From: Parabacteroides faecis
GTDB lineage: Bacteria > Bacteroidota > Bacteroidia > Bacteroidales > Tannerellaceae
Length of the DNA: 64,000 nt
Direction of reading: 5' to 3'
Assembly: GCF_014647375.1 (NCBI RefSeq)
Contig: NZ_BMPB01000013.1
Location: forward strand, 124,001-188,000
The notes beneath the pieces are model-generated. The model was not told the origin of the DNA. It saw only the letters and a program-made list of their open reading frames with translations, and did no database searches. The position numbers and the translations under genes are program-made. Positions 4,685-46,118 of this stretch are shown here, piece by piece. How positions within the stretch are numbered: position 1 is the stretch's first letter; each line of letters begins with the position of its first letter.

Positions 4685-4702
4685 AAGGTGTCGTTTTGGG
4701 AG

Positions 4703-4730
4703 AAGGGACCTGGATTCAACCAGGTCCCTT
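4703..4730 (-). terminator. Intra-operon hairpin between SusD and DUF6057 genes
   Basis: Perfect 11-bp stem (4703-4713 with 4720-4730) and 6-nt loop. No T-run follows on the minus strand, so it is more likely an RNA-stabilising or partly terminating hairpin that keeps SusC/SusD mRNA above the downstream genes. Confidence 0.6.
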
Positions 4731-4737
4731 TGAGTTT

Positions 4738-6389: not shown

Positions 6390-9300
6390 TTAGAATGAAA
6401 CTTTTAAACCTAAAGACACCTTTTTAACATTACCGTAATAGGCTCCGCGATTGGAAGCCGGAGCTTCGGGATCGATACCTTCCAAACCACTGAATGTTAA
6501 TAGATTTTCACCGGATAGGTATACTTTAACCTTGTCGACTCCTATCTTTTGAGTAAGAGCAGACGGAATATTATATCCTAATGAAATATTTTTCAGACGA
6601 ACATAAGATGCATCCTGTAACCAGAAAGAAGAGGTTGAAAAGTTTACCTGTGAATCTTTGGTGATACGAGGATAAGAGGCATTGTGATTATCAGGAGTCC
6701 AGCGATCCAGGTGACGTTCCAGTACTTTTCCGCTATTGTAGAATGCATAAGCGGATTCTCCTGTATAATAACCATCTACATCGAAGGCTCCCTGGAAAAA
6801 TGCAGAAAAGTCGAAATCTTTGTAGAAGAGACTTATATTCAGACCTCCTGTCCATGACGGCTTATCTTTACCGATCACTTTGCGGTCGTTCGCTGCATCG
6901 ATTTTACCGTCACCGTTCAAATCGCGATATTTAATATCTCCCAGTTGTTCTGTTCCGGTACGTTTCGCATCGTTCGCTAATTCTTCTTCCGTATTGAAAT
7001 AGCCGATAGCTTCGTAGCCGTAGAATGAGCCTAAAGCATATCCTTCAAGGTACCAGTATTTGCTATCATCCGGATTTTCACCTTCCGTTCCACACATATC
7101 TGTAATTTTATTTTTTACATAGGCGACATTCAGGTTAATAGCATAGCTGAAATCTTTATTGATCCGGTTATTATGGAAAACGCTTAAGTCAAAACCTGTA
7201 TTTTGCATGCTACCTGCATTTTGTGCCGGAGCATCCATGCCGAGGACACCCTGCACCGGCAAATAGAGTAACATATCTTTGGTTTTCTTTTTGTAGACTG
7301 ACAATTCAAATCCTAAACGGTTATTCAGGAAACCTGCTTCCAGGGCTGCTTCGTAATTGGTTACTGTCGCCCATTTTAGCTCGGAGTTTACATAACGTGA
7401 TTCATAGGCTGTAGAGTAAAGAGAATTGCCAAACATATAGCTGCCGTATGCATAGGTAGGGATAGCCGGATAGATATCGTCGTCTGCAAGTTCCTCATTA
7501 CCGGTTTGTCCCCAGCCCAGGCGCAGCTTCAAGTTGCTCAGCCAATTGATATCGGCATCTTTTACAAAACTTTCTTCCGTAATACGCCATCCGGCAGAAA
7601 CAGAAGGGAAGTATCCCCAGCGTGAGTCTTTCGGGAAACGGGAAGATGCATCGGCACGTAGATTAGCTTCAAACAGATATTTGTCGCTGAAATCATATTG
7701 GATACGTCCGAAATAGGAGCGTCGTGCAATTTCGTGGCCTCCGTTTGTATTTGTCTGGGAAGACTTGTCCAATGTGTTCAATGACTCGGTAAGTTCATCG
7801 TTTCCACCACCTTTACGGGTAGCCTCCGTATATTTGTATTTATAGTAGATTTGTTCAAAACCGGCTAATACGGCAAGCGAATGTTTTCCGAAAGTTTTGT
7901 TATAATTAGCCAATACCTGCGTTGTATACCAGTTCCAGTCATAATATTTTTGATATCCTTCGCGCAGACCGGAGTTATAAGTATTGTTACCGGTACCATA
8001 TTCCAGTAGTTTTTTGAACCCCTCATTATTACGGGTATCGTTGCGTACAGAGAATAAGGCTTTGACATTCAGTTCCGGTAAAATATTGACTTTGGCGTAG
8101 GCTGTTGCGTTGAGCTGCTGGTCTGTTTGTCGTGTAAATCCTGTATTGTTCAGATGGGCAACCGGGTTATTGAGGCCACTATAATAATATGTACCGTCTT
8201 CATTATAGACCGGAACGGTAGGAGACAAGCGGTTTGCATATTGGCGAAGCGAAGCATATCCTTCCCATCCGTCATTTTTAGTACCTCTATAGCCTGAAAC
8301 ATTCAATCCGGCATTCAGCCATTTATTGATGTCGCTGTCCACACTGATACGTCCGTTGAAACGATCGTATTTGTTTACATCGATCAGGCCATCCTGGCGT
8401 GTATATCCGATAGAAGCATTGTAACTTGTTTTTTCAGAACCTCCGTTGATGGAGAGGTTGTGATAAGTTTCCATTGCATTCTTTTTGAATGTTTCTTTAT
8501 ACCAGTCTGTGTCAGGCAGAGTTCCGTTTCGATAGTTTTCAATATCTTCGTCTGTGTAGGGGAGAATGGCATTGGGATTTTCATTTTTGACTGCTTCGTT
8601 ATATAACATAGCATAATCTCCCGATCCCAGGAATTTTAACAATGCAACAGGAGATGTCCATGCGACGGAACCGGAGTAGTTGATACGAGCTTTATCTCCT
8701 TTCTTACCTTGTTTAGTTGTGATCAGTATGACACCGTTTGCAGCCTGTACTCCATAAATAGCGGAAGATGCGGCGTCTTTCAATACAGTGAGGCTTTCGA
8801 TATCCTGCGGGTCGATCGTGTTCATACTACCGGGTACTCCGTCTACTATAACCAAGGGGCTACCACCGTTGATGGAGTTTGTACCACGGATGGTAATACT
8901 GGCCGTCTGTGATCCCGGAGCACCAGAGCTTTGTATGGCAGTTACACCTGGTATCTGGCCGGCTAAAGCGGCAGATACACTCGCTACACTTCGTGATTCA
9001 ATAGCTTCGGCAGAAATGTGTGCGACAGAACCTGTCAGGTTTGCTTTTTTCTGTACTCCATAACCGACAACGATCACTTCATCCAGCGCCTGGGAATCTT
9101 CTTTCAGGACAATTTTCCCTTTTGAAGCTTCGGATGCTTTGATCTCTAATGTTTTGAATCCAATACTACTGATTACCAGCATGTCCGTAGGATTTGCCTC
9201 GATTGTAAATTTTCCATCTAAATCGGTTACAGTTCCGTTTGTCGTGCCTTTAACAACAACATTGGCACCGATGAGCGGCTCATTCATTCCACCATCAAAG

Positions 9301-9449
9301 ACTACTCCACTTATGGCTTTTTTCTGTTGGGTAATAGATACTTCTGTTGTAATGGCGTACAAGGAAGAAGTGGTTACTGAAACAGGAAAAGCAAGTGCAA
9401 TTAAAAGCAAAGGGAGTTTGTTTTGCTTTAAAATAGACCTGTAATTCAT
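6390..9449 (-). CDS. SusC/RagA-family TonB-linked outer-membrane receptor
   Basis: 1019 aa, the usual SusC length. In order: signal peptide (to about SSLYA), carboxypeptidase-regulatory-like domain (about 45-120), TonB-box-like DEVIVVGYG, plug (SSAIYGVQAANGVILITT) and a large beta-barrel ending in KKVSLGLKVSF with the terminal aromatic residue. Start ATG at 9447-9449. The N-terminal 145 residues closely match the SusC cut by the left edge. It forms an operon with SusD, DUF6057 and the haem/PD40 protein. Its only obvious promoter-like box lies in the invertible segment 9496-9725 and currently points away, so expression is probably phase variable and OFF in this DNA. Confidence 0.96.
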   Translation of the reverse strand: MNYRSILKQNKLPLLLIALAFPVSVTTSSLYAITTEVSITQQKKAISGVVFDGGMNEPLIGANVVVKGTTNGTVTDLDGKFTIEANPTDMLVISSIGFKTLEIKASEASKGKIVLKEDSQALDEVIVVGYGVQKKANLTGSVAHISAEAIESRSVASVSAALAGQIPGVTAIQSSGAPGSQTASITIRGTNSINGGSPLVIVDGVPGSMNTIDPQDIESLTVLKDAASSAIYGVQAANGVILITTKQGKKGDKARINYSGSVAWTSPVALLKFLGSGDYAMLYNEAVKNENPNAILPYTDEDIENYRNGTLPDTDWYKETFKKNAMETYHNLSINGGSEKTSYNASIGYTRQDGLIDVNKYDRFNGRISVDSDINKWLNAGLNVSGYRGTKNDGWEGYASLRQYANRLSPTVPVYNEDGTYYYSGLNNPVAHLNNTGFTRQTDQQLNATAYAKVNILPELNVKALFSVRNDTRNNEGFKKLLEYGTGNNTYNSGLREGYQKYYDWNWYTTQVLANYNKTFGKHSLAVLAGFEQIYYKYKYTEATRKGGGNDELTESLNTLDKSSQTNTNGGHEIARRSYFGRIQYDFSDKYLFEANLRADASSRFPKDSRWGYFPSVSAGWRITEESFVKDADINWLSNLKLRLGWGQTGNEELADDDIYPAIPTYAYGSYMFGNSLYSTAYESRYVNSELKWATVTNYEAALEAGFLNNRLGFELSVYKKKTKDMLLYLPVQGVLGMDAPAQNAGSMQNTGFDLSVFHNNRINKDFSYAINLNVAYVKNKITDMCGTEGENPDDSKYWYLEGYALGSFYGYEAIGYFNTEEELANDAKRTGTEQLGDIKYRDLNGDGKIDAANDRKVIGKDKPSWTGGLNISLFYKDFDFSAFFQGAFDVDGYYTGESAYAFYNSGKVLERHLDRWTPDNHNASYPRITKDSQVNFSTSSFWLQDASYVRLKNISLGYNIPSALTQKIGVDKVKVYLSGENLLTFSGLEGIDPEAPASNRGAYYGNVKKVSLGLKVSF

Positions 9450-9495
9450 GTGTTTTTTAATTATGATTAATATTAATACTGTGTAATTAGTATGG

Positions 9496-9512
9496 AGTTC
9501 CTGTAGAACTAT
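9496..9512 (+). repeat. Inverted recombination-type site, SusC-proximal copy (locus 2)
   Basis: AGTTC-CTGTA-GAACT plus AT, 17 bases, is the exact reverse complement of 9709-9725. It lies 46 bp upstream of the SusC start codon. The AGTTC/GAACT arms are the same as at locus 1, but the 5-nt centre differs. Confidence 0.85.
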
Positions 9513-9685
9513 ATACTTTATTTCTTTGGTAATCGGTTGTATTGTAGTTGTTTGTGGTTTTACGTATGTCTTTTTATTAAAACAGGTTAAGATAAATGCA
9601 ATGAACGTATTTAACGTTTGGGTGTATTTTTATTAAGAAGAGGTCTAAATTTTAAATATTTATAGTATACATATTAAAAAAATAC

Positions 9686-9693
9686 TATATTTG
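9686..9693 (+). promoter_or_regulatory. Promoter -7 box inside invertible segment 2, pointing away from SusC
   Basis: TATATTTG (TAnnTTTG consensus) on the plus strand, 15 bases before the distal inverted site, exactly the spacing at locus 1. In this orientation it faces the ABC-F gene at 10002 rather than the SusC gene. No clear -33 box. Confidence 0.7.
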
Positions 9694-9708
9694 CAGTGTA
9701 ATTATTAA

Positions 9709-9725
9709 ATAGTTCTACAGGAACT
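9709..9725 (-). repeat. Inverted recombination-type site, SusC-distal copy (locus 2)
   Basis: AGTTC-TACAG-GAACT core preceded by AT, exact reverse complement of 9496-9512. The bounded segment is about 200 bp and AT-rich. The 276 bp from here to the ABC-F gene hold no gene that I can see. Confidence 0.85.
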
Positions 9726-9972: not shown

Positions 9973-9980
9973 TATCTTTG
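9973..9980 (+). promoter_or_regulatory. Promoter -7 box of the ABC-F gene
   Basis: TATCTTTG, exact TAnnTTTG, 21 bp before the ATG at 10002. The upstream -33 match is weak. Confidence 0.55.
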
Positions 9981-10001: not shown

Positions 10002-11948
10002 ATGATTTCGGTTGAAGGACTAACAGTTGAATTTGGCGGATTTACGCTTTTTGATGACGTTTCGTTTGTGGTAAATAAGAAAGACCGTATCGCGCTGGTC
10101 GGAAAGAACGGGGCGGGAAAATCTACGATGTTGAAGATCTTTGCAGGCTTGCAGACTCCGACATCCGGGACAGTGAGTGTTCCTAAAGAAACAACGATCG
10201 GTTATCTGCCGCAGCAAATGCAGTTAACCGATAGCCGTACGGTTCGTGAGGAAGCGGAGCAAGCTTTCGGACATATCCGGGAAATGGAAAAAGAGATCGA
10301 ACGGTTGAACCTGGAACTGGCAGAGCGGACTGATTATGAGACTGAATCATATCAAAAACTGATAGACAAGGTAACGCATCTTTCTGAACATTTTCAGTTG
10401 CTGGGGGGAAGCAACTACCATGCGGAACTGGAACGGACTTTGATCGGATTGGGATTCAAACGTACTGATTTCGATCGTCCGACCTCTGAATTCAGCGGTG
10501 GATGGCGTATGCGTATCGAGTTGGCAAAGTTATTGCTTCGCCGGCCGGATGTATTGTTGCTCGATGAGCCGACCAACCACCTGGATATTGAATCTATCCA
10601 ATGGCTGGAGAATTTTATAGCTACCCGCGCCAATGCGGTGATTTTGGTTTCCCACGACCGCGCCTTTATCGATAACACGACTTTCCGGACGATCGAGATC
10701 GAATTGGGAAGCATATACGATTATAAAGTCAAATATTCCGAATATGTGGAACTCCGTAAGGAACGCCGCGAGCAACAACTTCGTGCTTTTGAAAATCAGC
10801 AGAAGAAGTTGGCTGATACGGAAGCCTTTATTGAACGGTTCCGCTATAAGGCGACGAAATCCGTTCAGGTGCAGTCGCGTATCAAGCAGCTGGAAAAGGT
10901 AGAACGTATCGAAGTCGATGAGGTCGATACGGCGATGTTGAGCCTGAAGTTTCCGCCTGCTCCCCGGTCTGGTTCTTATCCGGTGATCATGGAGAATGTG
11001 GCCAAACGTTACGGTGATCATCTGATATTTAAAGATGTGACATTGACTATAAACCGGGGAGACAAAGTGGCTTTTGTCGGTAAGAACGGAGAAGGTAAGT
11101 CTACGCTTGTAAAATGTATCATGGATCAGATCGACTATGAGGGCAAATTGCAGTTGGGACATAATGTGAAGATCGGTTACTTTGCACAGAACCAGGCACA
11201 GTTGCTGGATGATAACCTGACGGTATTCGATACGATAGACTATGTGGCAGAGGGAGATATACGTACCAAGATACGCGATATACTCGGAGCTTTTATGTTC
11301 GGTGGCGAAGCGTCTGATAAGAAGGTGAAAGTATTGTCCGGTGGAGAACGGAGCCGTCTGGCTATGATCCGCCTTTTGCTGGAGCCCGTCAATCTCCTGA
11401 TTCTCGATGAGCCTACCAACCATTTGGATATGCGTTCGAAGGATGTTTTGAAGGATGCGTTGCGTGAGTTCGACGGGACTGTGATCGTTGTTTCACATGA
11501 CCGCGAATTTCTGGATGGCCTGGTCGATAAGGTCTATGAATTCGGAAACCAGCGCGTCGTGGAACATTTGGGTGGTATCTACGAGTTTCTGGAAAGAAAG
11601 AAAATGGACAGCCTGCGCGAATTGGAACGTACTGCACAGGTCGCTTCTTCTACAACGGATACGGAAGTGCAGCCTACGCAAAATAAGTTATCGTATGAAG
11701 CACGCAAGGAGCAGAGTAAAGCGATCAAGAAAGTAGAAAAAGCTGTCGCTGAAGCCGAAAATAAAATAACTGAACTGGAAAACTCCATAGCTGCTATCGA
11801 AGCCAGGCTGGCTACTCCGGAAGGTGCATCCGATACCTCTTTATATAATGATTATTCATCATTGAAAAAAGAATTATCTGACACGATGGATACATGGACA
11901 GAGTTGACCATAGAGTTGGAAGAATTGAATGAAAAAGCGTCCCGGTGA
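10002..11948 (+). CDS. ABC-F family ATPase (Uup/EttA-like translation factor)
   Basis: 648 aa soluble protein with two ABC domains. The first has Walker A GKNGAGKST, signature FSGGWRMRIELAKLL and Walker B VLLLDEPTNHLD. The second has GKNGEGKST, LSGGERSRLAMIRLL and LLILDEPTNHLD. A linker rich in charged helices separates them, and a C-terminal coiled coil (about residues 565-645) resembles Uup. No membrane segments are present, so it is not a transporter. Members act on ribosomes, in translation quality control or antibiotic protection, and which role applies here cannot be read from sequence. It stands alone with its own promoter box, although the invertible promoter at 9686 also faces it. 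Confidence 0.93.
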   Translation: MISVEGLTVEFGGFTLFDDVSFVVNKKDRIALVGKNGAGKSTMLKIFAGLQTPTSGTVSVPKETTIGYLPQQMQLTDSRTVREEAEQAFGHIREMEKEIERLNLELAERTDYETESYQKLIDKVTHLSEHFQLLGGSNYHAELERTLIGLGFKRTDFDRPTSEFSGGWRMRIELAKLLLRRPDVLLLDEPTNHLDIESIQWLENFIATRANAVILVSHDRAFIDNTTFRTIEIELGSIYDYKVKYSEYVELRKERREQQLRAFENQQKKLADTEAFIERFRYKATKSVQVQSRIKQLEKVERIEVDEVDTAMLSLKFPPAPRSGSYPVIMENVAKRYGDHLIFKDVTLTINRGDKVAFVGKNGEGKSTLVKCIMDQIDYEGKLQLGHNVKIGYFAQNQAQLLDDNLTVFDTIDYVAEGDIRTKIRDILGAFMFGGEASDKKVKVLSGGERSRLAMIRLLLEPVNLLILDEPTNHLDMRSKDVLKDALREFDGTVIVVSHDREFLDGLVDKVYEFGNQRVVEHLGGIYEFLERKKMDSLRELERTAQVASSTTDTEVQPTQNKLSYEARKEQSKAIKKVEKAVAEAENKITELENSIAAIEARLATPEGASDTSLYNDYSSLKKELSDTMDTWTELTIELEELNEKASR

Positions 11949-23620: not shown

Positions 23621-23786
23621 ACAGGTTTATTTGCCGTCTGCTTCAGCTGACGGTTTACAAGTTATTTCTCCTTTTCGGCTTTAGCCACATTTTTTCACAT
23701 AGAGATTGTGTTTAAAATGTGACTAAAGTCCAAAGAAATAGTTATTAACTAATCCGTCAGCTGAAGCAGACGGCAAATAAACCTGT
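23621..23786. repeat. 166-bp near-palindromic element with perfect 33-bp terminal inverted repeats
   Basis: Positions 23621-23653 and 23754-23786 are exact reverse complements over 33 bp. The interior continues the symmetry: 23680-23693 pairs with 23714-23727 at 13 of 14 positions. The outer arms contain a REP-like GCCGTC...GACGG palindrome. The element sits between two convergent genes, where it could end transcription both ways. It may also be a non-coding mobile (MITE-like) element, although I see no target duplication. Confidence 0.75.
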
Positions 23787-45010: not shown

Positions 45011-46021
45011 ATGAGCTTGAAAGAATCGTACTGGAAATATTCCCTGATTACTATTATCGTGGTGATGGGAATCATACTTTTTATTGAATTTACTCCGTTC
45101 CTGGGAGGTATATTAGGAGCATTCACCATCTATATTTTATTGAGAAAACAATTGCAATACCTGACGGAAAAGAAACGTCTGAATCGTAGCCTGGTAGCTA
45201 TCCTGTTATTGCTGGAGACTATTTTATGCTTTCTTATTCCGTTATCCCTGGCTGTCTGGCTATTTGTCAATAAGTTACAGAATATAAACCTGAATCCTTC
45301 CGAACTGGTCAGTTCTTTTGAACATATCGCAGATCTGATCCGGCAGAAAACAGGTTATGACTTGCTGGAAAAGGATAATATAGCATCCATCGTATCGGTG
45401 TTGCCTAAAATCGGCCAGGCTTTGATGGGAGGGATCAGCGGCTTTGCCGTGAACATTGCTGTTCTTGTCCTTATTCTTTACTTTATGCTGATCGGAGGAA
45501 GTAAGATGGAGACATATATTTATGATATCCTTCCTTTCAGTAAAGAAAATAAACGCGAAGTATTGAAAGAGATCAACATGATCGTAACTTCCAATGCGAT
45601 CGGTATTCCTTTGCTGGCTATTATTCAAGGTGCTATTGCGATGGTCGGGTATTGGATATTTAATGCGCCGAGTCCGTTCCTGTTCGGTTTTCTAACCTGT
45701 TTTGCGACTATTATACCGGTGGTTGGAACGGCTTTGGTCTGGTTGCCGCTTGTCGTTTATATGGCTTTGACCGGAGACTGGGTGAATAGTCTGGGATTGG
45801 TAGCCTATGCGTTGATCGTTATAACGAATGTAGACAATCTGATACGTTTCGTCCTTCAGAAGAAAATGGCGGATACTCATCCGTTGATTACCATTTTCGG
45901 CGTAATCATCGGACTGTCTTTGTTTGGTTTTATGGGGATTATATTCGGACCGCTCCTGATCTCTGTCTTTATACTTTGCTTCAGCATGTTTAAGAAAGAA
46001 TACTTGGACAAAGATAGTTGA
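45011..46021 (+). CDS. AI-2E/PerM-family transporter
   Basis: 336 aa with about seven membrane segments and the family's conserved C-terminal part (IPLLAIIQGAIAMVGYWIFN, FLTCFATIIPVVGTALVWLP, VDNLIRFVLQKKMADTHPLI, FGPLLISVFILC). Members were named for possible autoinducer-2 export, but several act as ion antiporters, so the substrate is open. The stop codon touches the start of a heptad repeat element. Confidence 0.9.
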   Translation: MSLKESYWKYSLITIIVVMGIILFIEFTPFLGGILGAFTIYILLRKQLQYLTEKKRLNRSLVAILLLLETILCFLIPLSLAVWLFVNKLQNINLNPSELVSSFEHIADLIRQKTGYDLLEKDNIASIVSVLPKIGQALMGGISGFAVNIAVLVLILYFMLIGGSKMETYIYDILPFSKENKREVLKEINMIVTSNAIGIPLLAIIQGAIAMVGYWIFNAPSPFLFGFLTCFATIIPVVGTALVWLPLVVYMALTGDWVNSLGLVAYALIVITNVDNLIRFVLQKKMADTHPLITIFGVIIGLSLFGFMGIIFGPLLISVFILCFSMFKKEYLDKDS

Positions 46022-46118
46022 CAGTTGACAAGTGACAGTTGACAGTTATTTCGGCTTTCAGCCGATTTATAGAGCGCGAAGCTAAACTGTCACTTGTCAA
46101 CTGTCATCTGTCAACTGA
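46018..46118. repeat. Heptad repeat element, inverted pair with inner hairpin
   Basis: The left arm of TGACAGT/TGACAAG 7-mers (46018-46048) and the right arm of ACTGTCA-type 7-mers (46084-46118) contain an exact 19-bp inverted repeat (46022-46040 with 46085-46103). Between them are a TCGGCT-TTC-AGCCGA hairpin (46051-46065) and GCGAAGC, the same core as the element at 30967-31050. It lies between convergent genes. Confidence 0.8.

Follow-up and report, generated by a model that had tools for sequence, protein, structure and literature searches.

The window analysed here, a stretch of 64 000 nt from Parabacteroides faecis, carries near one end a SusC-SusD operon on the minus strand, a divergent ABC-F gene on the plus strand and, between the two, an inverted repeat that encloses a promoter-like box. 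The features are as follows.

9496–9512, plus strand: SusC-proximal arm of the repeat, AGTTCCTGTAGAACTAT, with core site AGTTC-CTGTA-GAACT (9496–9510); the SusC start lies 46 bp away
9709–9725, minus strand: distal arm, the exact complement of AGTTCCTGTAGAACTAT, with core site AGTTC-TACAG-GAACT (9711–9725)
9513–9708, no strand: putative invertible segment of 196 bp, bounded by the two arms, its inversion being argued from sister elements
9686–9693, plus strand: Bacteroidales −7-type box TATATTTG, directed away from SusC and hence OFF as assembled
9449–6390, minus strand: SusC (SusC/RagA TonB-linked outer-membrane protein; TIGR04056, E 4e-303), first gene of the operon
6369–4738, minus strand: SusD-family protein
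4702–4731, no strand: strong hairpin between SusD and DUF6057, a possible attenuator or RNA stabiliser
4684–3128, minus strand: DUF6057 protein
3124–1646, minus strand: PD40 beta-propeller protein carrying one CXXCH and, read by eye, a lipobox-like N-terminus
10002–11948, plus strand: divergent ABC-F gene with its own separate box TATCTTTG (9973–9980, plus strand) beyond the invertible segment
1355–1587, no strand: sister invertible element before the next SusC gene, with spacer TAACA/TGTTA and box 1547–1554, also OFF

The original prediction had described an exact 17-bp inverted repeat at 9496–9512 and 9709–9725, a consensus box at 9686–9693 that faces away from SusC, and a spacing from box to distal site equal to that at the sister element, and all three descriptions were borne out. 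The arms are exact complements (allowing one mismatch, the inverted repeat grows to 20 nt at 95 % identity), the box is the sole TAnnTTTG of the segment, and its end lies 15 nt from the distal arm at the target as at the sister element (box 1547–1554, arm at 1570), and 17 nt from the core site. The spacers of the two target sites, CTGTA in the proximal and TACAG in the distal arm, are also exactly complementary. The layout is that of an invertible promoter of the Bacteroidales, with an intergenic inverted repeat ahead of an operon and, inside the segment, a TAnnTTTG box that reads outward over one repeat. Between 9440 and 10010 the only other TAnnTTTG was the one at 9973, before the ABC-F gene; no left-facing box was found, nor could a −33 TTTG, a usual companion that was not treated as defining, be seen by eye upstream of 9686. 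A sigma-70 promoter scan returned 26 matches, compared with 28.0 in shuffled sequence.

Inverted repeats of 17 bp with arms 20–400 nt apart were absent from all first-order resamplings, 100 of the window and 5000 of the intergenic stretch. The real window held four, namely those of the two elements and two without the core, at 23621 and 46019.

The four-gene operon SusC-SusD-DUF6057-haem lipoprotein that had been proposed was recovered gene for gene, and the last label is a fair guess for the PD40 protein because of its one CXXCH and lipobox-like N-terminus. Given the hairpin at 4702–4731 between SusD and DUF6057, equal expression of the four genes should not be assumed. The sister element starts 58 bp past the last gene of the operon and no minus-strand terminator was found by scan between the two, and with the target promoter ON, transcription may, on this sequence layout, continue into the next SusC gene whatever the orientation of element 1355–1587. 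Over its whole length the target SusC protein was 72 % identical to its counterpart in P. gordonii and 70 % identical to that in P. goldsteinii, and it matched B. fragilis SusC loci at 71–75 % with the first 24–45 residues not covered.

The leaders of the SusC genes beside the two window elements (1201–1342 and 9300–9478) share approximately 87–90 % DNA identity over some 120 bp, despite which the two proteins are only 42.5 % identical. Gene conversion or exchange is a possible source of such likeness beside the switches.

Every core site is a palindrome of the form AGTTC-N5-GAACT, and the P. faecis assembly (6.66 Mb, 33 contigs) contained 66 exact copies, compared with one for the control pattern, which was the same motif read backwards. 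Forty-five of the 66 fell into 22 exact inverted pairs whose spacers are complementary (one pair has a third site), spanning 156–1667 bp. The spacer match was not imposed by the selection of pairs: when all pairs of exact sites less than 2 kb apart were counted, 23 had complementary spacers, one, which involves the third site, had identical spacers, and none was unmatched. Of the 21 unpaired sites, 12 had a near-exact partner within 2 kb (spacer matching, half-sites with one or two mismatches) and nine had none, so that the genome is likely, as judged by site pairing, to hold 22 exact and up to 34 switches of the AGTTC type. Elements L076, L078, L080 and L087, which have no SusC neighbour, precede ECF sigma-factor genes, and some switches may therefore act one level up. 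The motif was also enriched in B. fragilis Q1F2, with 33 cores compared with four for the control, some of them directly before SusC genes.

The 22 pairs carry 20 different spacers. Selection for private spacers was considered and set aside, as this diversity is what base composition gives (two coincidences compared with 3.8 expected from column composition, P(≤2) 0.35); insulation of one locus from another is a mechanistic idea that draws no support from excess diversity. Tyrosine recombinase sites with differing spacers should not recombine. The spacers of the target and the sister element differ (CTGTA and TAACA), and the tandem pair should therefore not delete the operon that lies between them.

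The position and direction of the box were compared over 70 elements, comprising those with exact cores in P. faecis (22), P. gordonii (19), P. goldsteinii (13) and G038 (13), a third close genome from the genus, together with the target's three imperfect orthologues; many of the 70 are mutually orthologous. An outward TAnnTTTG box lay 14–34 bp from the core, mostly at 16–17 bp, in 52 of the 70, compared with 3.9 on average and at most 12 in mononucleotide shuffles; the remaining 18 had no outward consensus box. In 41 sequences of the class, each centred on its box, no −33 consensus (TTTG) was conserved. For 35 elements no SusC neighbour was found, one had SusC on both sides and seven were next to SusC and boxless, which left 27 that could be scored. 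In 24 of these the box faced away from SusC and in three it faced towards it (binomial p 5e-5 against an even split, with related loci taken as independent); within the P. faecis genome itself nine were OFF and one ON. The OFF state of the target is therefore the rule in these assemblies.

Inversion was visible in comparisons between species. The 235-bp segment of P. faecis element L092 (C15:163477–163711) was 97.4 % identical to that of G038 element L184 only when inverted, with flanks that matched unflipped at 95.5 and 94.0 %, and the segment of P. goldsteinii L169 matched G038 L183 at 90.8 % when inverted, with unflipped flanks at 94.2 and 97.0 %. Thirty-seven distinct, partly overlapping cross-species comparisons had both flanks matched; 29 were unflipped, five flipped (three loci; P. 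faecis L086 is counted once, the six flipped rows containing one element twice) and three without a segment match. Flips backed by one flank (L076 compared with L160, L175 and L190, and L153 compared with L182) were excluded from this count. Judged by these alignments, elements of the AGTTC class invert. The box region of L092 is 85 % identical to that of the target over 59 bp. The segment of the element at 1355–1587 was nearer to the G038 element (score 143) than was that of the second, syntenic window element (score 72).

We consider it highly probable that 9496–9725 is a site-specific invertible promoter of the SusC-SusD operon, OFF as assembled and one of a known kind. The site family, the box distances, the flips of sister elements and the spacers of the target locus, which differ between species and yet match between arms, all support the initial reading of an invertible promoter standing OFF.

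At the target locus itself, the orthologous segment lies the same way round in P. goldsteinii and G038 as in P. faecis. In P. gordonii a perfect box points towards SusC at the same 17-nt distance, and the distal end of the segment also matches the distal end in the relatives, so that homology leaves the orientation ambiguous; both ends of the P. gordonii segment look promoter-like, and they align with each other (score 46, compared with a shuffle maximum of 30). A flip of the target in P. gordonii was accordingly discarded as a claim, and no clean flip at this locus was seen among P. goldsteinii, G038 and P. gordonii. The spacers are CTGTA/TACAG in P. faecis, TAGTA/TACTA in P. gordonii and TAGCA/TGCTA in both P. 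goldsteinii and G038. Spacer match was a search condition for the relatives' sites, but those found lie at positions shared by P. gordonii and P. goldsteinii. That the spacers changed between species while the match between arms was kept speaks for activity at the target. Among the related SusC loci, 21 of 22 were examined upstream, some over incomplete stretches, and a site pair was present only in P. gordonii and P. goldsteinii; three B. fragilis loci had sites with no matching partner and the rest had no exact site.

The same comparison bears on the alternative that the switch has been retired, i.e. that it was formerly invertible, is now fixed OFF, and leaves the operon to another promoter or to none. 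The orientation shared by P. faecis, P. goldsteinii and G038 would fit this, as would the half-site mismatches in the arms of P. goldsteinii, G038 and P. gordonii. We nevertheless regard it as improbable, since the P. faecis arms are exact over 17 bp, sister elements flip, and spacers that differ between species still match between arms, a match that ought to decay in a dead element. Compatible with an active invertible promoter, and in our view quite improbable, is a two-way switch in which the box as assembled also drives the divergent ABC-F gene and a flip trades one set of genes for the other. The box does aim at that gene, 276 bp off, with no terminator-like site between them by scan, but a separate box at 9973 precedes the ABC-F gene itself, and the distal neighbour varies, P. 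goldsteinii and G038 having a 346-aa ORF there and P. gordonii no outward ORF of at least 110 aa within approximately 600 bp. It is exceedingly improbable that the repeats are operators for a dimeric regulator or leader RNA hairpins rather than recombination sites, for although each site is itself palindromic, as dimer binding would have it, the inner 5 bp are complementary between copies and locus-specific, which operators do not need, and the segment between the sites has been found inverted in sister elements.

For the invertible promoter, the following mechanism is proposed. A tyrosine recombinase acting in trans would bind the AGTTC/GAACT half-sites of both arms, and strand exchange within the 5-bp spacer, for which the arms would have to match, would flip the 196-bp segment. 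In the ON state the TATATTTG box would adjoin the proximal arm and transcribe SusC-SusD and the genes behind them; in the assembled OFF state it adjoins the distal arm and points away, so that the operon has no recognisable promoter and would be silent. The enzyme is probably a core tyrosine recombinase encoded elsewhere in the genome, and no recombinase gene was seen next to the target element.

The P. faecis genome had 23 matches to PF00589. One of them, C3:454683–455873 (397 aa), has Arm, SAM-like and Phage_integrase (catalytic) domains and was the reciprocal best hit of a G038 gene at 92 % and of a B. fragilis gene at 57 %, within a pool that comprised 20 of 23 G038 and 19 of 23 B. fragilis Q1F2 matches, took the longest ORF per place and left out most Xer genes of both. 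Other recombinases behaved differently. L034 and L035 were 94–100 % identical to B. fragilis copies and are therefore probably mobile, L037, L039, L040 and L042 had a partner in G038 only (76–99 %), and L033 and L038 had weak partners in G038 and B. fragilis (33–47 %).

An exact core site lay within 7 kb of the C3 orthologue in seven of 17 genomes, these being the 15 best matches and B. fragilis together with G006, included because the linkage was already apparent (six of 16 without it); some of the stretches were shorter than 7 kb. In five Parabacteroides genomes (G002–G006) an inverted pair lay approximately 5 kb from the orthologue, between two SusC genes, and in G018 there was one core site within 7 kb. 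B. fragilis Q1F2 carries two copies of the recombinase (L241 and L242) near both ends of the chromosome record, each approximately 0.9 kb from a core site with the same spacer, and three further sites with that spacer lie at 508–514 kb. No exact site was found beside the C3 recombinase in four large genomes including that of P. faecis, where the contig ends 4.7 kb off. Recombinase gene and core sites alike are commonly close to SusC genes. The C3 recombinase itself adjoins a SusC gene, and contig C3 breaks within that gene (L232), perhaps due to mixed orientations.

Genomes that contain a full-length hit to the recombinase had more sites per Mb (Mann–Whitney p 0.0025, 19 compared with 20 genomes), a comparison in which 19 genomes were hand-picked, genome size and kinship confound, and the hits of G002 and G024 carry stop codons. 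Genome G022 contradicts this link, having 21 core sites yet no hit to the C3 recombinase at E 1e-60. By conservation and linkage, the two grounds for the assignment, the C3 gene is the likely enzyme for AGTTC sites, with other PF00589 candidates remaining.

A wider picture, offered tentatively as something possible, is that one chromosomal tyrosine recombinase serves approximately 22–34 promoters. Common half-sites combined with near-private spacers would let the loci flip independently and without cross-locus recombination, and the states of surface nutrient receptors, and of ECF sigma factors placed above other genes, might make up a many-bit code whose default is OFF.

Tsr enzymes are tyrosine recombinases, and Mpi is a serine recombinase. 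Among known systems, the excerpts available of two reports describe SusC/SusD phase variation in B. fragilis by the invertase Tsr0667, as a shufflon with several sites at three SusC/SusD clusters and not at nine other regions (PMC4747536, PMC11852207). The likeness to the target lies in the AGTTC-N5-GAACT cores before B. fragilis SusC genes, on which Tsr0667 may act, and the presence of core sites near both the recombinase copies and SusC in B. fragilis suggests a tie to the Tsr0667 inversions. The difference lies in the arrangement, as the clusters described for Tsr0667 are shufflons, whereas the target is a simple two-site promoter inversion, with two exact sites only, 215 bp apart, and a neighbouring element with another spacer.

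As described in part of the same literature, the B. fragilis promoters IVp-I and IVp-II are inverted by BF2766/Tsr19 (PMC4747536). They resemble the present system in having a single tyrosine recombinase, local and distant invertible promoters, a TAnnTTTG −7 box and control of surface genes, and differ from it in their targets, which in that account are EPS and vesicle genes. According to the same account, Mpi inverts the promoters of B. fragilis capsule genes (PMC4747536); these resemble the system proposed here in that a master invertase acts on many promoters between inverted repeats, and differ in their capsule targets and in the enzyme family noted above. Invertible promoters of antibiotic-resistance genes on conjugative elements of the same order, for which OFF is said in an excerpt to be advantageous in most samples, carry between their inverted repeats a promoter similar to TTTG / TAnnTTTGY (PMC8748976). 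There, as far as that excerpt goes, the invertase gene adjoins the promoter on mobile elements, unlike the target.

Invertons of gut Bacteroidota have been sorted by repeat motif, with a Bacteroidota promoter motif inside (PMC11892184), and the AGTTC-N5-GAACT core may already be among those groups. Further partial accounts list SusC/SusD loci among invertible regions of varying orientation in IBD (PMC10939037) and phase-variable regions in P. distasonis, of the same genus as the target (PMC10773633).

SusC/SusD phase variation, described for B. fragilis, is here extended to many loci in a Parabacteroides lineage, for which both the core of the recombination site and a candidate enzyme are put forward. 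Comparison between species also reveals, without recourse to reads, that sister elements invert in nature. What stands out is the scale, together with the private spacers and the bias towards OFF. An assembled genome may display most such receptors OFF, and growth or expression tests on a single culture can then miss them.

Some other repeats were seen alongside. At 23621–23786 the window has a 37-nt inverted repeat (97 %) with 92 nt between its arms and without the AGTTC core, and at 46013–46117 repeated AGTTGACAGT-like units give rise to inverted repeats of 23–32 nt. In Prevotella sp. DNF00663 (L142:5494–5620) an unrelated 18-bp inverted repeat lies upstream of a related SusC gene, with boxes at its arms.
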